The translations under genes and the position numbers were made by a program. From IMG/VR virus record IMGVR_UViG_3300009419_000060, positions 1 through 30,215 of that record: a DNA stretch of 30,215 nt, one strand, 5' to 3'. Below, in pieces: positions 2,955-15,805 of this stretch. Each line of letters starts with the position of its first letter. The stretch's first letter is position 1. Source of the stretch: a virus. The notes beneath the pieces are model-generated. The model was not told the DNA's origin and did no database searches. It saw nothing but the letters and a program-made list of their open reading frames with translations.

Positions 2955-2988
2955 TAGACTCGACCAACCCCCTTTCCGAGAGGCGCAC

Positions 2989-4305
2989 ATGAGCCTGCAA
3001 CTTGCCGCACAACACATGGCCTCGCGTGGCCGTGGCCCAGACACGACCCTAGTCCATATGGCCCCACAAGAGGTGGCTGGCCTTCAGGCAGTTGCCAAGG
3101 CGCACGGTGGCTCCCTGACCATCAACCCTGATACGGGTTTACCCGAAGCTGGGTTCCTCAAGAATCTTTTGCCGACGCTGCTCGGTGTAGGGTTGGCCGC
3201 TACGGGTGTTGGCGCTCCTCTGGCAGCAGCCATGGTCGGCGGTGGTTACGGATTGGCCACGGGTAGCCTGAAAAAAGGTCTGATGGCTGGTCTCGGCGCA
3301 TACGGCGGCGCAGGTTTGGCTGGTGGTCTGAGCGCTGCCGGGACTGCCGCTGCTGGGGCAGAGAGTGTGGTTAACCCACTTCAGGGTATGGAAGCAGCTG
3401 CATTGGAGAATACTGCGGTGGCCCCTGCTGCAAGTGTTGAGGTAGGAGCCCCAATTATGGAGCGCGCAAATCTGTCCCAGATTACCCCTGCGCGGAGCTC
3501 GTTGGATGCTATGGCGGATGTCTATTCTGCGCCGGTTGCCCCCGTTGCAGCCCCTGCACCCATGGTGCCGCAGACAGATATGCTAGCTGGCATGGACAGA
3601 GCGGCTATGGAGAACAAAGCTGTGGCAGGATTCAACCCTGCAAACACCGACAGCCTTACAAATGCAAAGCGGGGGCTGTCCGGGCTTATGGATAACCCAG
3701 CCTCACGTGATGCGTTCATGACCAAAATGGGCGGTGCTCCCGGACTTCTGAAAACAGGAATGATGGCAGCGGCCCCAGTGCTTATGGGCGACCAAAAACA
3801 AGCCGAGTACAAAGGCAGCGGCCCTAACCCATACGAGTATTCGTACGACTACAAAACTGGTTCATACGCCCGTCAAGCCCCCGGATACCGTGACGCACAA
3901 ACAGTAACTTCACCTCGCGCTATGGCAGCAGGGGGGCCAATCGAAGAGATGTCTAACCAAAACCGTATGAGCACCATGATGGCTAACGGTGGCCAGATGT
4001 TTGCCCGGGGTGGTATTTCCCACCTTGGCGACTACTCCGACGGTGGTCGGCTTTTGAAAGGTCCCGGCGATGGCGTATCTGACTCCATTCCTGCAACGAT
4101 TGCGAACAAGCGCCCAGCGCGTCTTGCTGATGGTGAGTTCGTTGTGCCTGCTCGTATCGTTTCTGAACTAGGTAATGGCTCGACCGAGGCGGGTGCACGT
4201 AAGCTGTACGCCATGATGGACCGCGTGCAGAAGGCCCGCAAGAAGTCGATTGGCAAGAACCGCGTAGCCGTTAACAGCCGCGCAGAGAAGCTGCTGCCCG
4301 CATGA
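2989..4305 (+). CDS. Glycine-rich virion-type protein with SDSIPA...GEFVVPA C-terminal motif
   Basis: I chose ATG 2989, behind GAGAGG, over the in-frame ATG at 2914, which would overlap the previous gene. This gives 438 residues. An Ala/Gly-rich hydrophobic stretch covers about 50-100 (LLGVGLAATGVGAPLAAAM, then GLGAYGGAGLAGGLSAAG), which could be membrane-active. The middle is Ala/Pro/Met-rich and probably disordered. The C-terminus (about 312-438) has repeated short Gly-Gly peptides (MAAGG, MMANGG, FARGG, YSDGG). It then has GPGDGVSDSIPA (358-369), ADGEFVVPARIVSELGNG and a basic end. The SDSIPA...GEFVV pattern is familiar from C-termini of phage tape-measure and other virion proteins; its function is unknown to me. 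It is probably an internal or ejected virion protein. It overlaps the next gene by ATGA. Confidence 0.7.
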   Translation: MSLQLAAQHMASRGRGPDTTLVHMAPQEVAGLQAVAKAHGGSLTINPDTGLPEAGFLKNLLPTLLGVGLAATGVGAPLAAAMVGGGYGLATGSLKKGLMAGLGAYGGAGLAGGLSAAGTAAAGAESVVNPLQGMEAAALENTAVAPAASVEVGAPIMERANLSQITPARSSLDAMADVYSAPVAPVAAPAPMVPQTDMLAGMDRAAMENKAVAGFNPANTDSLTNAKRGLSGLMDNPASRDAFMTKMGGAPGLLKTGMMAAAPVLMGDQKQAEYKGSGPNPYEYSYDYKTGSYARQAPGYRDAQTVTSPRAMAAGGPIEEMSNQNRMSTMMANGGQMFARGGISHLGDYSDGGRLLKGPGDGVSDSIPATIANKRPARLADGEFVVPARIVSELGNGSTEAGARKLYAMMDRVQKARKKSIGKNRVAVNSRAEKLLPA

Positions 4306-4763
4306 TTGAGTACGCCGTAGAAGACCCCGCGACCTTCATCGAGGAGTTGAAGGAAGTCATTCCACTGCACTACGACGAGTTGTGCGTCACCAAAGACTTC
4401 CCACTCATACCCGACTACGAGGCGTATGGGCGGCTGTACATGGCAGGGTTTCTCAAGTGTATAACCGCGAGGGATGAGCACGGGTTAGTCGGTTACGCTA
4501 TCTTTATTGTGCAACCGCATTTACACTACAAGTCTTGCAAAACAGCGTTTGAGGACATTTACTTCCTCAGAAAAGAACATCGATTGGGGCGTACGGGTAT
4601 CCGTTTGTTCCAGTTTGCGGAAGAAGCCCTGCGTGCGGATGGTGTCAATCGCGTCATCATGCACACGAAAATTCATATGGACAACTCACGGCTGTTTGAG
4701 TATCTTGGCTACAAGCATACGGACAAGCTGTACACGAAAATCTTGAGTACGGAGCAATCATGA
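4302..4763 (+). CDS. GNAT-family acetyltransferase
   Basis: The 153-residue protein has the order of a GCN5-related N-acetyltransferase. After an N-terminal helical part, a strand GLVGYAIFIV (61-70) is followed by EDIYFLRKEHRLGRTG (84-99). The R94-L-G-R-T-G99 segment is the acetyl-CoA pyrophosphate-binding loop (Q/RxxGxG/A). The following helix is RLFQFAEEAL, and LFEYLGYKH near 131-139 is the usual motif B end. The gene overlaps both neighbours by 4 bases (ATGA), so it is translationally embedded in the virion module. I infer it modifies a protein made or met late in infection, possibly a virion protein. The substrate cannot be read from the sequence. Confidence 0.88.
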   Translation: MIEYAVEDPATFIEELKEVIPLHYDELCVTKDFPLIPDYEAYGRLYMAGFLKCITARDEHGLVGYAIFIVQPHLHYKSCKTAFEDIYFLRKEHRLGRTGIRLFQFAEEALRADGVNRVIMHTKIHMDNSRLFEYLGYKHTDKLYTKILSTEQS

Positions 4764-7090: not shown

Positions 7091-10000
7091 ATGGCGAAAA
7101 AGTGGGTTGACGTTGTCGGTAGTGAGGCATTTCAGGCACTGCCGGATGATCAAAAAGAGGTTGCTCGGAACCAATACTTCGACAGTGTCGTAGCCCCACA
7201 GGTGCCCGAAACTGACCTTGACGCAGTCCGCCAACAGTTTCTCTCCACCACTTCACTCGGCCCAAAGAAAGCCCCCGCTCCACAAGGCGGTGGGTTTGAA
7301 ATGGGTAACCCAATGGGGGATGACTTCGGCTCCTCCATCATGGCCGCTGCCCGCGCACCCAAGCGCGAGAACGTTCTCGAAGACCAGAAGATGCCCGGTC
7401 CACTGCCGACCGAGGACAAGATGATTCGACCCGAGTTTGTTTCCGGTCTGGAAGCACAACTCAACGCAATGCCGGAAGCCAAGCGCAGCGCTGCGCTTGA
7501 GAAGATGCTCCAACGCCCAGACGTTTACGGTCGTGCGGCCAAAGTAATCCAAGGTCGGTACGCTGCTAGGGACAAGATGCAGCCCACGTCGCTCCAAAAC
7601 TTGACCGACCTGCGTCTGGAGCAACAACAGAAACGATTCATTGATCAGGGTATGGAGGCTGAAGCAGCCTTGAACCTTGCCCGCCAGCAAGCCCAGCAGG
7701 GTGTTGCCCGCCCCGACCTTCAGCAGATGAACCGGGACATCGAAGGCGAGATTGCCGACCAAGAAGCCGCTCGGATGCGTGAGGTGACTAAGGACGCTGG
7801 GTTCCTTGACCGTGTCGGTGAGGAGACTAAAGCGCAATACAAGCAGGCTGGGCTTGGCCTGATGAACGTGTTTGCTGACATTACCGGCGACAAGCAGATG
7901 CAGCGCGACATCTCTGGTGCTCGGCGTATGGTCGAGGCTGGGCGGCAAGCCATCCCCAAAGGCGATAGTATTTTTGAACGCTCGGCACAAGGGGCCATTT
8001 CGTCCTTGGCCGGACAGACCCCCATGATTGCCCTGAGCGTGCTTACTGGTACGGCAGCTCCTGTTCTTTTGCAGGCGGGCGTCCAACAGTTCGGCGACTC
8101 TTACGGCGAAGCTCGTGCTGCGGGTCAATCCCCCGCAGCGGCGGCGGCTCGTGCTGTTCCTATGGCGGCTGCGGAGATTTTCTTCGAGCGCTTCGGTATG
8201 GAAAAGGCGATGGCTGGCCTGCGCAAGTTTGTGTCTGACGCCACTGCCAAAGGGGAGAAGGTAACCGGCAACCAGATCGCCGAGTACATCGGCAAGGCGG
8301 CGGTGAAAGAAATCCCATCAGAGATGGCTACTACGCTGACTCAGTACGGGATTGACATCGTGCCGGGAGTGGGCCTCAACAAGAACCCCAGCGTGGCCGG
8401 TTTGTATCAACAGTTGGAAGAGACTTTGCGCCAAACGATCATTCAAGCGGGTACGCAAGCTGGCGTAACGCTCGGAGCGGTCAAGGGTGCCCAGAAGCTC
8501 GGCGACGTATTGAAGGCGGATACCCCTAGGTACGAACGTCCAGACGACATGGGGTACTACCAAGCCCTGCTCGCGGCGAAGAGCAAAGGGTTCTTGGTGC
8601 CTGAGCGCCGCAACCAGATGGTGCCTCCCGACCAAACTGCGGAAGCTCCCCCCACCGATGTTCCCGAAACCAACTTCGGGAACATACCAAAAGAAGAACA
8701 GCTGGCTGCGCTCACTGCCGAGATTGAATCTACGGGTATACCCGCAGAAGACGCACGGGTGCAGGCTGAGCAGATGCTCGTCGCCCAAGAAGCTGAGCAA
8801 CGCAAGGTTCTGGCCCCTCGCATCATCGAGCTGACACGCGAGTTTGTAGATGCGGGCATGGAGCCACAGCAAGCCAATCAACTGGCTATCCAACAAGCTA
8901 CAGAGGAGGCACAAGCAGATGCGCAAGCCGAACGAGAGGGCGCAGTCAATGCCCAACCAACTGTCAGTACCGCAGATCGAACAGGCGCTGGAGTGGCTGG
9001 ACAGCCCGGTGGAGTCGCCCCCACCGGAGGGGTTGGAAGCACTCAGCCAAGTGGAGTGGTACCTGCTGGACAAACTGCTGCAGGAACTGTGGCGGGAGAA
9101 GGCGAACAGCAGGGTGCATTGACGCTTGGCGAGCGTATCGGACCTATTCTTGGCCCCGCTAGGCCCGATGCCAAAAACGAAGAAATCTCTGCTGAAGACT
9201 CCGCCATGCTACGTAGCATGGTTGTGAAAACTGTAGAAGATGGACTTGCCCAAGGAAAAACTCGGCAGCAAATTATTCAGCAAATCGACGGGCTTACGCA
9301 AGGGGGCATCCCACCTGCGGGGTTCTTGCGTATCAACGATTATCTGACCGAAAACGGAGTAGCTGAAGAAGGGGCCGCGCCCAAAGCCAAGCGTGGCCGA
9401 CCAGCTAAGCTGACTGAGGAAGAAAAGCAGCAGCGTGCGGAAAACAAGCGCCCGGTCCAAGCGGCCAAGGCCAAGGCTGAACGCTCGCTTATCCGACTGA
9501 CCAACAAGCTGGACGAGCTGGCTGCGTTGCCAGACGAAGGCGACTTTGAGACCGACGAAGATTACGAAGCAGCTCTGGCCGACCACCGAGCCGAGCGCCG
9601 TGAGACCATCAAGTCTTTGTTGCAGCTGCAGGCTGACCCCTTGCTCCGGGGCACTATGGTTGGCGAACGTGTCAAAGCCGCATTGGCTCGCCCTGACATC
9701 TCTGAGAAAGAAAAAGCTGATCTCAAAGCAGGTATGGAGGCGCAGAAACGTGCGCAGGCTGCACTCCAAGGCGAGCAGGCTAGCTCTTCCCGTGTGACCA
9801 AGGGCACACCGGATACCGCATTTGGCAAGTTCGCCAATGGCGTTCAGGCTTTGAACCACATCATCAAGACGGGCAACGACTTCCAAAAGGCGCTCGGCAA
9901 GCGCCTGCGCAACTTTGTGACCAACGTGAAGTTTGTGGTTATTGAAGAAGGTCAAGAGCTGCCAGCACAGCTCAAGACCGCCAAGAACGCTCGCCACTGG

Positions 10001-13000
10001 GATCGTTCCATTGCGCTGTACATCGAGAACTACAACACGGGTGACCGTGTGATTTACGTGCGCGGTGCATCCTTTGGCGAGAACCAAGGCATCAACAACC
10101 TGACCATCCTGCACGAGCTGCTGCACGCGGCCACCAACCGCAAGATCGTTCTGGCTATCGAGGCTATCAAGAAGGGCGCAGACCTTAACTCGCCTTTGGT
10201 CCGCGCTGCGGGTGATCTGTTGCGCACAATGAACAGTGCCATCAGCACGTTCAACGACATGGCGGCTAAAAAGCAGCTGCCTGAGTATCTGTCTTTGCTG
10301 GCTGATCGTGGTGAAGTTTTGGAAGACCCACGCGAGTTTATTGCGTACGGCATGACCGACCCCGAGTTCCAGAATTTCTTGATGAAGGCCCAAGGGTACG
10401 AGGAAGACACTTCGTACTTCAACCGCTTTGTGCGCGGTATCCGTGAGCTGTTCGGTATGGACGAGGACACTACCAACGCCTTCACCGACTTGATCGTCGT
10501 GACCGACACCATCCTGAGCACCAAGGCTCCGCAGTATCCAGCTCGCACTGGGGACCAAGCAAGCTCTATGTTTGGGATGTTTGGCAAGAAAGAAGAGCCA
10601 AAGGCCAGCGAGCCGCTGCCGGAAGAAACAACCATCAAGGCTCGCCCAACTGCCAACGTGCAGCGTCTGGCCAAGATGCTCGGCTCCAAGCTGTACGGCA
10701 CGCCGAAAGACATTGCCGCTGTCTCGATCAAAGAGCTGTTCCAAAACTCCTTCGACGCTATCAAGGGCTCGTTGGAGCAGGGGCAGCTTACCAAGGGCCG
10801 CATCGACGTAAAGATTGACGACACCAACCGCTCTATCCGCGTTGTGGACAACGGCCTTGGTATGCCGACCAGCGTGATGGGCAATCAGTTCTTGCAGATT
10901 GCTGGTACTGTCAAAGAGACAAAGCGTGCGTCCGGTGGTCTCGGCGTTGCCAAGATGCTGTTCCTGTTCGAGAACAAGCAGCTTGAAGTCGTGTCGCTGC
11001 GCGATGGCGTGATCTCTCGCATGGTCACCAACGGTGATGACTTAAAGGCTGCGCTGGATGATCCAGACCGGGGGCCTAACATCGAAACCACTAAAGACCC
11101 AGCGACCGTGCAACGCTACATTGAGACTTTGTTCCCCGATGGCCACGGTACTGCGGTGACTGTGACTATTCCTGAGACGTTCACTAACGAGTCTACTGGC
11201 GAGCAGGAAAAAATTAACTTTAGCAAATGGGACCTCAAGAACGCTCCCGTGCTGGAACACAGCCCGCTGTTTGGTGATATTGATGTCAACGTCGATTACG
11301 GGTACGGTAATAACGAGCTGCCTATCGGTTCTAAGTTTCCGGTCAATGACTTCACTCCGTTTGCAAACGTCAACTTTGCTTGGGGTACTGCACGTATCTA
11401 CGTGTCTAAGGAGAAGACAGACCCATCGTACAAGGGCAACACTCACGTGCTGTCTAACGGTCTGTGGCAATTCGACACCTCGATCAAAGATCGCCCCGGT
11501 TTTGACGGTAAGAACATCAAGCGCACGTTCTATGTGGATGTGACTCCCGCCGAGAACGTCAGGCCAGAAGACGCTGGGTATCCGTTTGACTTGAACCGTC
11601 AGAACTTCTCGGCTGTGGCCAAGGATGACTTCGGCAAAATCTTCAACTACATCACCGCTATCTACAGCCAGCTTGATCTGGCCGAGGGCGTCAAAAACTT
11701 CGGCACGGTGCAGTACGTCAACGCCGATGGGTCGGTGACTGAAGCAGAAGCACTGGAGCCAACCGCCCCTCCAAGCGACAACGCGTTCACACTGATCAAA
11801 CCCGGCGACCAAGTAGAAGTGCGTGACGGCGTGCTGTATGTGAACAACCGCGCACTGCCCGAGTTGACCGCCAAAGACTTGGAGAAAACGAACATCCGCA
11901 TCGACGAGCTGACCATTCCGCAGAATGAGATCGACTCGACCAAGGTCATGATCCATGACAACACGCAGACGGATGTGTCGGCCTTGAATCCGGGTGATGC
12001 CGAGGCTGCGCTGAAAGCTCTGCAGAGCCAAGACCCCGTAAGATATTCAGTCGTAGATTTGGGCAACGGTCGGCTGTGGATGACAGCCAACGATGACAGC
12101 GGTAACCCGATTATTAACTATTCGGGTACACCATCCGAGGTGCTTCAGTGGGCCACGATGAACGACATCCCTGTGGAGATGCCCAAGGGCACGCCTCAGT
12201 CCTTGTCCGATCTTGCACGTGACCAATTTGGCGCTGCTCGTGTCAACAAGTACTTGTCAGCCATTGGCCAGACGTTCCATACGTTGCGCGATGCTTTGCT
12301 GTCCATTGACAGCACGTACTCTGATATGTCTACTCAAGCCTTTGGTGTGAGTATCGACAACGAGTATTACGGCGTCAGCATCATGGTGCCGTTCAAGGGT
12401 ATGTTCATCAACCCGGCTACGACTGACCTGCGCGGCACCCCTGCGCAAGTTGCGGTGTCTATGATCGGCACGATGGTCCACGAGATGGCCCACTTCCGCG
12501 TGCGTAACCACGGCGGCAGTTTTGCGTCTGAGATGCAGAAGATCATGACGCTGCTTGACACGCACCCATCGTTTGATTTACAACAGGCCAAAAAAGACCT
12601 GACCAAAGTCATCACCAGCAACGATGACATCTTCCAATTTTTAGACAAGGAGTTCCGCAGTGGAAATCTCAAACCTCGTGGCAACCGCTTCCAAGACGCT
12701 AGCTACCAACAAATCGGAGATGAAGGCGCTTCTGAGCCAATGGAAGGCGAACGCGCAGAAGGACAAGGAGGACCCGGCGTATCAGAACAGCTTGGAGCAA
12801 GCGCTCAAAGTACTGGACAAGTCGGCCAGCCTGCCGGAGATGGTGGCGAAACTGCGGAGACTGGAAATGCCGTCCGCACCCAAAAGCAACTGAACCGTGC
12901 GGTCAACGTAGCAAACGCTAAGTTTGAAGAGTCCCAGAACGGGGAGGAGTACAGCAAGGCAGTATCTCTGCTGCAGATGGCGCAAGACCCGCGCAAAATT

Positions 13001-15805
13001 ATCCCCGCGCTCCGCGACTTGTATCAGCGTATGAATCTCGGTGCACGGATTGCGTTTACTTACGCAATGACTACTGACTTCATGGCCGAGATGGCTGCGA
13101 ACACAGTGCCGGAGTTGAAGAACACCGACAAGCTGATGCAGAAGATGAGTGGCATGACTCAGACGCTGCTCAAAGCTGCGGGCGACTTGACCAACGATAT
13201 TGCCCGTGCGTACCGCAAGGACCCAACCCTGCGCGACAAGCTGGACAAGGTTACGCACATGGCGACTCTCGCCGAGTACGACCCAGCGGACAAGTCTCAG
13301 ACCCTGCGCAATAAAAAGCTCGATCAGATGTATGACGATCTGGGCCCCGAGGGTCAGCGCGTTTACAACCGCATCAAGAAGCACTTCGAGACTCTGTCGA
13401 ACTACTTCACCAAACTGCTCGATGACCAGATCACACAGTCTGGTTTGCCGATGGCGGAGCAAGCCAACCTGATTAAGAAGATCAGGGCCATGTACGAGAC
13501 CGGTAGCAAGATCACACCGTACTTCCCACTGGTGCGCCGTGGTGATTTCTGGTTGTCGATCGGCAGTGGTGAGACCCGTCAGTTCTTCATGTTTGAAAGC
13601 ATGGGTGAGCGTGACCGCGCCATGCAAGGTTTTGCCGACGAGAAAGTGAAGCAAAAGCCCGGTGAGTCCAACGCTGCGTTCCAAAAGCGCCGCGACCGCA
13701 ACATGCAGGACTTGCTGGAGTCGGAAGACTTTGTGTTCGGCAACGACATCAGCGCCTTGCGTAAAGCTACAGTCGGCAATAGCCAGCTCTTGACCGGCGT
13801 GTTCGGCGAGATTGATCGTGTTGGTGCAGGTACAGAGTTCACTCCCGAGGCCAAAGAGCAGCTCAAAGATGCGGTGTACCAAATCTACTTGCAGACAATG
13901 CCTGAGCAGAGCTTCCGCAAGCAGTTCATTCACCGTAAGGGCTTCGCTGGTTTCCGCACCGACTTGCTGCGCAACGTGGCCGACACGACCACCAAGATGG
14001 CAACTCAGCTTGCCCGTATCAAGTACGCACCCCTGCTGCGCAACTCGCTGTCTCAGGCACGTGACTCGATCAAGAACCGTCCGACCTACGAGCCGTACGT
14101 CTCTGCGTTTGAGCGCCGTGTGTCAGATGCGTTGTCGGCTGGCAAACCATCTATGGCCGAGAGCATTGCGGGCTGGTCCAACAAGTTCTCGTTCATTTAC
14201 TATTTGGGCGGTATGTCCTCGGCCATGCTTCAGCCGCTGAGCTTGTTCCAGACCGGTATCCCCGTGCTGACAAAGTATGGTGTCGGCAATGCCTACGCCG
14301 AGATGGGCAACATGCTGAAGGTGTGGCAAGAGTACGGTGTGATGCAGAAGAACGCTGACGGCACCTACTCGTGGGTGGCTCCATCCATTGAGAACGTCAC
14401 GCGCAGTGAAGACGAGCGCCGCGCTATCAAGGACATGCTGGCTCGTGACGTAACCACCTCCACCTACGCAAGTGATGCGCTGGACTACAAGGCTACGCCG
14501 ACTGATGCTATCTCGTCGCCTACGGTGCAGTTCGGCAAAGATACCGTCAGTGCGTTGGTGCTCGGCGGTTTGATGCACTCGACTGAACGCTTGTCCCGTG
14601 AGGCCATGTTCCTTGCAGCGTACCGACTGAACCGCAAAGCGGGCCGGGATCATGGAACCGCAGTGGACAACGCTGTCTTCGATACGAACGAAGCTCTTGG
14701 TAACTACGGCCAGTACAACCGCCCTGACTTTATGAAGGGCGCTGCCGGTAAAGTGCTTACCCAGTTCATGATGTACCCCGTGTACATGACTGCGTTCTTG
14801 GGCAGAAACTTTGTCGAGATGATCAAGCCTATGAACGGGCGCACTCGATTTGAGGCAGCCAAGAAGTTCTTCGGCACTATGGGCCACACTTGGATACTCG
14901 GCGGTGCAGTTGGTCTGTGGGGTTTCAGCACGGTCATGGGTTTCCTCGGCGCTATGTGGAACTCCCTCAAGGACGACGAGTGGCCCGAAGATGTCAAGAG
15001 CATGAGCTACGAGTTGTGGTGGCGCACTGTCTGGCTCAAAGAACAGCTTGGTGGTACTAAAGTTGCTGGATACGATCTCGCCGACGTGATTGAGCGCGGC
15101 CCTGTCAATGCCATCACCGGTGCAGACATCTCCGGTCGTGTGAGCTTGAACAACATGTGGCTGCGCGACACCAAAGAGACCGCAACCCCACGTGAGAGCA
15201 TCACAGCCATGGCCATGGAGAAGGCTGGCCCAACAGCCAACATGATCCTGTCTTGGGCTGACGCATACGGCGCGTTCATGGAGGGCGACTACAAGAAGGG
15301 TGTCCTCAAAGCCGCCCCTGCTGGTTTCCGCAACTACATCAACACGTACAACTACTGGAAAGAGGGCGCAAAGGACAACAAGGGCGTTGAGATTTTGTCG
15401 CGGGATGCGTTCACCACAGGTGATTTGATCTTCCAAGCTGTCGGCTTTCGCTCAGACCTGCTTGCGAATACGCAGTACGTGACGTTCAAAGTGATCGGCC
15501 TTGAGCAGAAGATTCTGAACGAGCGCAACAAGATCATGACCCGACTCGACCGCACGTACCGGGAGAAAGACTTTGGCGCGTACACCGACTCCTTCAGGGA
15601 CATGGAGAAGTTCAACCGCAAGTACCCAACGTACGAGATCACGGCGGACAACCTTGCGGATTCTCTGGAACGCCGACAGGAGCAACGAGCTACATCCTTC
15701 CGGGGCGTTACGCTGACCGAGAAAAACGTGGCACCGTTCGCAGAAGCCCTGCTCCCATCCCGGATTGCGGCGGACAAGCGCGAAGAGAAGAACCGCCAGA
15801 AGTAA
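7091..15805 (+). CDS. Giant virion polyprotein: two metallopeptidase-like motifs plus GHKL ATPase
   Basis: This is a 2904-residue protein behind AAGGGG, 30 bases after the previous stop. Segments in order are as follows. Residues 1-55 are an N-terminal module (WVDVVGSEAFQALPDDQ). About 300-340 is an Ala-rich hydrophobic segment. KRGRPAK (767-773) resembles an AT-hook. H1008-E-L-L-H1012 lies in TILHELLHAATNRK, followed by DPREFIAYGMTDPEF, a pattern of metallopeptidase domains in large polyvalent phage proteins. A GHKL ATPase follows: N-box E1215, N1219, D1222; G1 box D1253-N-G-L-G-M; G2 box G1282-G-L-G. Then H1797-E-M-A-H1801-x5-H1807-GGSF resembles SprT/YgjP-type zinc peptidases. The long C-terminal part is helical with PLVRRGDFWL and a membrane-like segment at 2600-2623. 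The family role is to be carried in the capsid and ejected into the host. Residues 610-678 and 1857-1935 are low-complexity linkers that overlie two nested genes. Confidence 0.85.
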   Translation: MAKKWVDVVGSEAFQALPDDQKEVARNQYFDSVVAPQVPETDLDAVRQQFLSTTSLGPKKAPAPQGGGFEMGNPMGDDFGSSIMAAARAPKRENVLEDQKMPGPLPTEDKMIRPEFVSGLEAQLNAMPEAKRSAALEKMLQRPDVYGRAAKVIQGRYAARDKMQPTSLQNLTDLRLEQQQKRFIDQGMEAEAALNLARQQAQQGVARPDLQQMNRDIEGEIADQEAARMREVTKDAGFLDRVGEETKAQYKQAGLGLMNVFADITGDKQMQRDISGARRMVEAGRQAIPKGDSIFERSAQGAISSLAGQTPMIALSVLTGTAAPVLLQAGVQQFGDSYGEARAAGQSPAAAAARAVPMAAAEIFFERFGMEKAMAGLRKFVSDATAKGEKVTGNQIAEYIGKAAVKEIPSEMATTLTQYGIDIVPGVGLNKNPSVAGLYQQLEETLRQTIIQAGTQAGVTLGAVKGAQKLGDVLKADTPRYERPDDMGYYQALLAAKSKGFLVPERRNQMVPPDQTAEAPPTDVPETNFGNIPKEEQLAALTAEIESTGIPAEDARVQAEQMLVAQEAEQRKVLAPRIIELTREFVDAGMEPQQANQLAIQQATEEAQADAQAEREGAVNAQPTVSTADRTGAGVAGQPGGVAPTGGVGSTQPSGVVPAGQTAAGTVAGEGEQQGALTLGERIGPILGPARPDAKNEEISAEDSAMLRSMVVKTVEDGLAQGKTRQQIIQQIDGLTQGGIPPAGFLRINDYLTENGVAEEGAAPKAKRGRPAKLTEEEKQQRAENKRPVQAAKAKAERSLIRLTNKLDELAALPDEGDFETDEDYEAALADHRAERRETIKSLLQLQADPLLRGTMVGERVKAALARPDISEKEKADLKAGMEAQKRAQAALQGEQASSSRVTKGTPDTAFGKFANGVQALNHIIKTGNDFQKALGKRLRNFVTNVKFVVIEEGQELPAQLKTAKNARHWDRSIALYIENYNTGDRVIYVRGASFGENQGINNLTILHELLHAATNRKIVLAIEAIKKGADLNSPLVRAAGDLLRTMNSAISTFNDMAAKKQLPEYLSLLADRGEVLEDPREFIAYGMTDPEFQNFLMKAQGYEEDTSYFNRFVRGIRELFGMDEDTTNAFTDLIVVTDTILSTKAPQYPARTGDQASSMFGMFGKKEEPKASEPLPEETTIKARPTANVQRLAKMLGSKLYGTPKDIAAVSIKELFQNSFDAIKGSLEQGQLTKGRIDVKIDDTNRSIRVVDNGLGMPTSVMGNQFLQIAGTVKETKRASGGLGVAKMLFLFENKQLEVVSLRDGVISRMVTNGDDLKAALDDPDRGPNIETTKDPATVQRYIETLFPDGHGTAVTVTIPETFTNESTGEQEKINFSKWDLKNAPVLEHSPLFGDIDVNVDYGYGNNELPIGSKFPVNDFTPFANVNFAWGTARIYVSKEKTDPSYKGNTHVLSNGLWQFDTSIKDRPGFDGKNIKRTFYVDVTPAENVRPEDAGYPFDLNRQNFSAVAKDDFGKIFNYITAIYSQLDLAEGVKNFGTVQYVNADGSVTEAEALEPTAPPSDNAFTLIKPGDQVEVRDGVLYVNNRALPELTAKDLEKTNIRIDELTIPQNEIDSTKVMIHDNTQTDVSALNPGDAEAALKALQSQDPVRYSVVDLGNGRLWMTANDDSGNPIINYSGTPSEVLQWATMNDIPVEMPKGTPQSLSDLARDQFGAARVNKYLSAIGQTFHTLRDALLSIDSTYSDMSTQAFGVSIDNEYYGVSIMVPFKGMFINPATTDLRGTPAQVAVSMIGTMVHEMAHFRVRNHGGSFASEMQKIMTLLDTHPSFDLQQAKKDLTKVITSNDDIFQFLDKEFRSGNLKPRGNRFQDASYQQIGDEGASEPMEGERAEGQGGPGVSEQLGASAQSTGQVGQPAGDGGETAETGNAVRTQKQLNRAVNVANAKFEESQNGEEYSKAVSLLQMAQDPRKIIPALRDLYQRMNLGARIAFTYAMTTDFMAEMAANTVPELKNTDKLMQKMSGMTQTLLKAAGDLTNDIARAYRKDPTLRDKLDKVTHMATLAEYDPADKSQTLRNKKLDQMYDDLGPEGQRVYNRIKKHFETLSNYFTKLLDDQITQSGLPMAEQANLIKKIRAMYETGSKITPYFPLVRRGDFWLSIGSGETRQFFMFESMGERDRAMQGFADEKVKQKPGESNAAFQKRRDRNMQDLLESEDFVFGNDISALRKATVGNSQLLTGVFGEIDRVGAGTEFTPEAKEQLKDAVYQIYLQTMPEQSFRKQFIHRKGFAGFRTDLLRNVADTTTKMATQLARIKYAPLLRNSLSQARDSIKNRPTYEPYVSAFERRVSDALSAGKPSMAESIAGWSNKFSFIYYLGGMSSAMLQPLSLFQTGIPVLTKYGVGNAYAEMGNMLKVWQEYGVMQKNADGTYSWVAPSIENVTRSEDERRAIKDMLARDVTTSTYASDALDYKATPTDAISSPTVQFGKDTVSALVLGGLMHSTERLSREAMFLAAYRLNRKAGRDHGTAVDNAVFDTNEALGNYGQYNRPDFMKGAAGKVLTQFMMYPVYMTAFLGRNFVEMIKPMNGRTRFEAAKKFFGTMGHTWILGGAVGLWGFSTVMGFLGAMWNSLKDDEWPEDVKSMSYELWWRTVWLKEQLGGTKVAGYDLADVIERGPVNAITGADISGRVSLNNMWLRDTKETATPRESITAMAMEKAGPTANMILSWADAYGAFMEGDYKKGVLKAAPAGFRNYINTYNYWKEGAKDNKGVEILSRDAFTTGDLIFQAVGFRSDLLANTQYVTFKVIGLEQKILNERNKIMTRLDRTYREKDFGAYTDSFRDMEKFNRKYPTYEITADNLADSLERRQEQRATSFRGVTLTEKNVAPFAEALLPSRIAADKREEKNRQK
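8904..8909 (+). promoter_or_regulatory. Shine-Dalgarno AGGAGG for nested gene at 8919
   Basis: A perfect AGGAGG sits 9 bases before the ATG at 8919, inside the giant open frame. It has no use for the giant frame itself, so it supports internal initiation of the +1-frame gene. A second candidate start, ATG 8949, has GAGAGG at 8934-8939. Confidence 0.6.
8919..9122 (+). CDS. Nested +1-frame gene inside the giant gene (67-residue Trp/Leu/Glu-rich protein)
   Basis: This gene lies wholly inside the giant gene, in the +1 frame. It has a perfect AGGAGG 9 bases before ATG 8919. The product looks like a folded helical protein: PQIEQALEWLDSPVESPP, then LEALSQVEWYLLDKLLQ and ELWREK. Leucine is mostly CTG, as in the surrounding genes. 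In the same stretch the giant frame reads only Gly/Ala/Pro/Thr/Val, with 9 of 14 glycine codons being GGA, which the giant frame otherwise seldom uses. This suggests the nested frame is the one under protein-level selection. Its TGA (9120-9122) overlaps a TTG in the giant frame (TTGA at 9119-9122), the same geometry as this phage's ATGA overlaps. I do not know a function. It could be a non-expressed relic, but the signals argue against chance. Confidence 0.6.
   Translation: MRKPNERAQSMPNQLSVPQIEQALEWLDSPVESPPPEGLEALSQVEWYLLDKLLQELWREKANSRVH
12647..12652 (+). promoter_or_regulatory. Shine-Dalgarno AAGGAG for nested gene at 12660
   Basis: AAGGAG lies 7 bases before GTG 12660, an ideal distance, within the giant frame. 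It supports internal initiation of the second nested gene. Confidence 0.55.
12660..12893 (+). CDS. Second nested +1-frame gene inside the giant gene (77-residue helical protein)
   Basis: This is a 77-residue gene in the +1 frame of the giant gene, with a GTG start behind AAGGAG at 7 bases. The product looks like a two- or three-helix protein (SEMKALLSQWKANAQKDKED, YQNSLEQALKVLDKSA, LPEMVAKLRRLEMP) and is charged and soluble. Over the same bases the giant frame is a Gly/Glu/Ser/Gln linker in which 8 of 14 glycine codons are GGA, the same codon anomaly as at the first nested gene. The TGA at 12891-12893 overlaps a CTG in the giant frame (CTGA). An alternative is that the linker arose when separate genes on both sides were joined and read through this small gene out of frame. 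No function is recognised. Confidence 0.58.
   Translation: MEISNLVATASKTLATNKSEMKALLSQWKANAQKDKEDPAYQNSLEQALKVLDKSASLPEMVAKLRRLEMPSAPKSN

Follow-up and report, generated by a model that had tools for sequence, protein, structure and literature searches.

Within the giant gene of a viral genome fragment, a short open reading frame in the +1 register has its own start codon and ribosome-binding site, which raises the question of whether it is a real gene or a stop-free stretch tolerated by the gene around it. The window, i.e., the whole stretch of DNA analysed, is a 30-kb IMG/VR virus record. The initial annotation had proposed a real small gene, here named gene A, that forces a passive linker in the giant protein. 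The features concerned are as follows.

7091..15805, + strand: giant host gene, DarB-like / PLxRFG polyvalent-type; ORF of 2904 aa, assigned from NF032893, phrog_10089 and cultured homologues
13850..15727, + strand: PLxRFG domain of the giant, NF032893 PLxRFG match
10724..11023, + strand: HSP90/Top6B-like ATPase segment of the giant, within residues ~1160-1900, a region absent from many relatives' giants
8904..8909, + strand: Shine-Dalgarno AGGAGG of nested gene A; duplex energy -12.0 kcal/mol, retained by the closest relatives
8919..9122, + strand: nested gene A, +1 frame of the giant, ATG start, 67 aa plus stop
8918..9124, + strand: low-complexity linker in the giant frame, overlapped by gene A; residues 610-678, GGA skew, predicted disorder at 621-675

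The giant matched the PLxRFG model NF032893 with an E-value of 2.9e-101 and 340 bits (cut-off 100), which satisfies the criterion for a PLxRFG domain. Its C-terminal part also matched the DarB-like family phrog_10089 (E 2e-56), with only the C-terminal end of the profile covered. The criterion for P1 DarB proper was not met, as no Pfam DNA methylase-helicase dyad domain was found in the giant of the window. The host of gene A is of the same kind as the polyvalent and DarB-like giants described earlier (Iyer et al. 2017, PMC5512222; PLxRFG NF032893). It has been proposed that polyvalent proteins accompany the DNA of the phage (Iyer et al. 2017, PMC5512222), and by analogy we infer that the giant of the window may do the same. 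A text search of PMC5512222 returned no mention of genes nested in polyvalent proteins. A small GNAT acetyltransferase gene (4302-4763, + strand) lies before an ejection-protein-like gene and the giant; the giants of ZX1 and Atu_ph08, both cultured phages, likewise have a gene for a GNAT or N-acyltransferase nearby.

When the coordinates were re-read, the AGGAGG at 8904-8909, the nine bases separating it from the ATG at 8919 and the 67 codons were confirmed, with the stop codon at 9120-9122. GGA had been reported for nine of 14 glycines in the linker; the nine GGA codons are correct, the total is 15, and the reported scarcity of this codon elsewhere in the giant also holds (18 of 220 glycine codons; Fisher p = 3e-6). 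A giant-frame GGA is produced wherever a nested codon ending in G precedes an Asp or Glu codon. The placement of the linker at residues 610-678 was correct as well, and the same stretch is rich in Gly, Ala, Pro, Val and Thr in relatives. Single-sequence AlphaFold modelling of residues 480-800 gave pLDDT values below 50 and almost no secondary structure for residues ~621-675, with helices on either side. The suggestion that the linker is passive fits both its composition in relatives and this predicted disorder between helices. The length of the open frame was not significant by itself: 421 of 2000 synonymous reshuffles of the giant (21%) kept the 67 codons open, and the +1 frame of the giant gene has stop-free runs longer than gene A. 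Because the interval stays open at this rate, the window alone is insufficient as proof of gene A. Its significance derives from the start codon with its Shine-Dalgarno, the flipped codon-position pattern, the conservation of the protein and its universal presence in the clade of the giant.

Relatives of gene A were collected by protein and profile scans of IMG/VR, with peptides read in any frame, which returned hundreds of matches. In all 246 loci listed (245 fetched loci and the window, some contigs being counted more than once) the homologue lies inside a long ORF and is read in the +1 frame relative to it. A loose DNA motif scan added at least 120 further stretches; of the 120 listed, 119 are nested in an intact long ORF, with HMM scores down to 24 bits. 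In the remaining one (L308, ~12100-12200) the giant frame has a TAA within the overlap and the nested homologue is intact. After removal of duplicates, at least 210 distinct nested sequences remained in public viral contigs. Their complete host ORFs (n = 55) range from 1685 to 3204 aa, with a median of 2099. Since the IMG/VR scans read any frame, stand-alone copies would have shown up; neither these six-frame scans nor the DNA motif scan found one among the at least 210 distinct sequences, which answers the search for a stand-alone 67-residue protein that the initial annotation had suggested. The idea of a common N-terminal module ahead of gene A was abandoned, since it is present in only 21 hosts.

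We also searched from the side of the giant, using the C-terminal PLxRFG domain, 4-5 kb away from gene A, as the IMG/VR query. Among the 79 new loci listed, all 51 giants with a complete 5' end carry gene A in the same phase. Each of the 22 loci without gene A inside the giant ORF is a contig truncated upstream, and one of them has a partial copy at its end. As far as sampled, gene A appears to be universal in the clade whose PLxRFG domains are ~45-91% identical to that of the window. Outside of it, the HMM found no member of the family in the eight cultured Bcep22-like podovirus giants tested, which are more distant (22-26% identity). No relative of gene A, or of a second nested gene, B, described below, was found in cultured phages or in bacterial genome contigs.

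Comparison of the two frames revealed that the nested one is the better conserved. In 64 distinct sequences, identity was 0.675 for the nested frame and 0.444 for the giant frame; in 2013 of 2016 pairs the nested value was the higher one. Stops interrupt the third frame of the overlap in 61 of the 64. For the 88 pairs whose flanks could be aligned, changes in the giant frame within the overlap fell at codon positions 1, 2 and 3 in proportions of 51/30/19%, compared with 23/15/62% upstream and 25/19/55% downstream. Synonymous reshuffling of the giant codons would drop nested identity from 0.471 to 0.159. A signature tryptophan of the nested protein is kept in 206 of 206 sequences. The contrast is weaker for the closest relatives; between the window and L009, giant-frame identity (.85) is slightly above nested identity (.83). 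Selection on the nested frame, judged by an excess of changes at nested third positions and by a conserved protein, was accepted on these data. In relatives the linker residues of the giant drift, while the protein of the +1 frame is retained together with its start and ribosome-binding site, the opposite of the pattern that would have refuted the gene.

The start sites were of two types, GAGGAGG-N8/9-ATG, mostly opening proteins of 61-69 aa, and AAGGAG-like-N6/7-ATG or GTG, mostly opening proteins of 55-58 aa, and their position varies by clade (55-69 aa). Thirteen members start with GTG or TTG. All 125 best ATG candidates have a Shine-Dalgarno of -5 kcal/mol or lower (mean -8.6), whereas among the 5612 remaining ATGs in the +1 frame of these giants 11% do (mean -1.9); the former figure is somewhat inflated, because the best of several start candidates was taken. 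An own start and ribosome-binding site, kept in relatives, is the second property by which we judged the gene, and it was present. Although no direct expression data are available, positions 8919-9122 very probably constitute an overprinted gene with independent initiation, a conclusion that rests on comparative sequence evidence. Ribosomes initiating at the AGGAGG-ATG inside the giant mRNA would make a small helical protein from the +1 frame, and others would read the same bases as the disordered linker of the giant protein. Within the overlap, selection would act mainly on the small protein, and the giant frame would need only to remain open and flexible.

The structural model of the gene A product has helices at residues 17-28 and 44-63 with a Pro-rich turn between them (pLDDT 74), and the protein is predicted to be a two-helix hairpin. 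Sequence and fold searches found no relative in Pfam, PHROGs, PADLOC, PDB or BFVD. A weak match to phrog_5825 (E 0.13) was not reproduced on a repeat search, and this family was rejected. With its function unassigned by homology, an even chance is given to a late function of its own, such as host takeover, lysis timing or counter-defence, that is unrelated to the giant, the location merely reflecting its origin by overprinting. Nothing in the functional searches ties the product to any process, vertical inheritance alone accounts for the constant location, and the surrounding giants are mosaic, several having no detectable homology to that of the window. The absence of any stand-alone escape among the at least 210 distinct sequences and of any loss in the 51 complete giants weakly favors a tie to the giant instead. 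Because gene A is universal in the giant clade and was never found apart from a giant, its product might be a partner devoted to the giant, such as a factor for assembly, packaging or ejection. This role is inferred from linkage only and is held tentatively, as vertical inheritance of an overprinted gene would give equal co-occurrence, and it is ranked below an unrelated late function. The choice between these two roles does not bear on whether the gene is real.

Gene A is not alone in its host. The initial annotation described one nested gene, which stands; a second one had escaped it. A codon-position scan of the whole giant against six close relatives revealed that variation at position 3 collapses twice along the giant, at residues 606-690, corresponding to gene A, and, more deeply, at residues ~1846-1940. 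The latter collapse coincides with another +1-frame ORF, gene B.

12660..12893, + strand: nested gene B, +1 frame, GTG start, 77 aa plus stop
12647..12652, + strand: Shine-Dalgarno AAGGAG of nested gene B, -8.0 kcal/mol

In the giant frame, the bases of gene B encode a linker rich in Gly, Ser and Gln that separates the ATPase region from the PLxRFG region. Fifty-three loci of family B were fetched, and each distinct sequence among those listed overlaps a long ORF, always with the same offset between the two frames. All 30 usable distinct members start behind a Shine-Dalgarno (GTG in 18, ATG in 12), and the giant-frame pattern is flipped here as well, at.187/.098/.090 for positions 1/2/3. Homology between A and B was tested and not supported.

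When the codon-position scan was extended to groups of related giants, A reappeared in nearly all of them and B in seven. A third nested family (MDVQQLQTLQSLLETTKKVPPQHRMEALQ...) was observed at residues 1565-1642 of the L090 giant by the scan of that giant's group. Three more regions, given here in the coordinates of L454, were indicated by the same scan in Pavtok, PEp14 and Stean, which are cultured Erwinia phages.

L454 3135-3446: N1, reversed codon-position pattern in Erwinia phage giants; 76 aa, ATG with GGAGG
L454 5682-6005: N2, +1 frame of the giant; homologues in L373, L455, L368, L456, L374, L371 and L372
L454 11595-11867: N3, reversed codon-position pattern; GTG-started, less certain, over a non-linker stretch

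N2 (~105 aa, MNLNNWVGQAKAHWKEHQPT...) has matches in 21 cultured phage records, with Erwinia, Klebsiella, Pseudomonas, Agrobacterium, Vibrio, Sinorhizobium, Ochrobactrum and Microcystis as hosts. In all eight giants checked it lies inside the giant in phase 1, over a Gly/Ala/Arg-rich linker, and none of the records inspected annotates it as a gene. Like gene A, N2 of the Bcep22-like phages is a +1-frame gene with its own start over a linker of a DarB-like giant; it differs in its unrelated sequence, its greater length and its position in the giant. A test for homology between A and the N1 of Pavtok gave no support. Other regions of low position-3 variation in some giants, among them a lysine-rich stretch in its +1 reading (...ALKPLKPSKQKRKD...), were rejected since they look like echoes of a conserved giant-frame motif. 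Literature searches did not turn up these nested genes, with most subscription papers outside our reach. In Sinorhizobium phage PBC5 (L457 ~2955-3309), homology to the giant switches frame just before N2; the annotated orf33 has the N2 protein as its end, and a separate ORF encodes the downstream half of the giant. This switch reflects either a sequencing error, a natural split or a frameshift.

PBC5 provides the only support for programmed frameshifting from the giant into the +1 frame, by which gene A would be expressed as the tail of a truncated giant, since there the upstream half of the giant runs into the frame of N2 and ends. However, that case may be a sequencing or natural frameshift, and for gene A such an origin seems highly improbable: the start codon and Shine-Dalgarno are conserved even as their position shifts between clades, neither being needed by a frameshift, and the nested frame is often open only shortly upstream of the start, at varying places. 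That there is no gene at all, the openness stemming from biased linker composition or the bases forming an RNA or DNA element, can be set aside almost entirely, because the rate of open reshuffles noted above is its sole support and is outweighed by conservation at the amino-acid level with changes concentrated at nested third positions, by the invariant tryptophan and conserved starts, and by the L308 giant, broken while its nested frame is intact.

Independent initiation of an overprinted gene, the preferred reading, has precedents among phages. Gene E of phiX174, which lies within D, and gene K are overprinted genes. More generally, overprinting creates a new viral protein by the use of another reading frame within a gene that already existed (reviewed in PMC8227390). 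Gene A departs from this general picture in that its nested frame is the more conserved one and lies in a disordered interdomain linker, and the giant of the window in that it holds two unrelated nested genes. The closest known architecture is that of lambda Rz1, embedded entirely in the +1 frame of Rz over a mutationally silent stretch of the Rz protein (PMC5295617); gene A is likewise wholly +1-embedded in a larger phage gene. Unlike Rz1, a lipoprotein paired with Rz in lysis, the gene A product has no cysteine, its host is a polyvalent-type giant and no stand-alone copies were found. The criteria for an Rz1-type o-spanin were not met, since a protein without cysteine has no lipobox cysteine and signal peptide, and since its host is a 2904-aa PLxRFG giant and the gene is not in or beside an i-spanin gene. 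Membership among the spanins was excluded on these grounds.

Gene A is a real gene missed by annotation. Gene callers normally suppress a small ORF within a long one, which renders families like A invisible in phage catalogues; for this one, public viral contigs yielded at least 210 distinct members, none of them found in Pfam, PHROGs or cultured-phage records. Based on gene B and the further nested genes in cultured relatives, the linkers look like a recurrent habitat for such genes. We consider it somewhat more probable than the contrary that +1-nested genes systematically inhabit the disordered interdomain linkers of giant polyvalent proteins in phages, with at least four unrelated families (A, B, the third family of L090, N2 and N1) retained in such linkers while the domains of the giants are exchanged. 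The giant gene would then also serve as an operon for concealed small genes, and their products may act together with the giant. The locus offers a testable case of two proteins sharing one stretch of DNA, in which the cost to the giant is a disordered linker, paid at least twice in one giant. Cultured phages of Sinorhizobium and Agrobacterium, which are laboratory bacteria, share the nested-in-giant architecture, which makes it amenable to testing at the bench.
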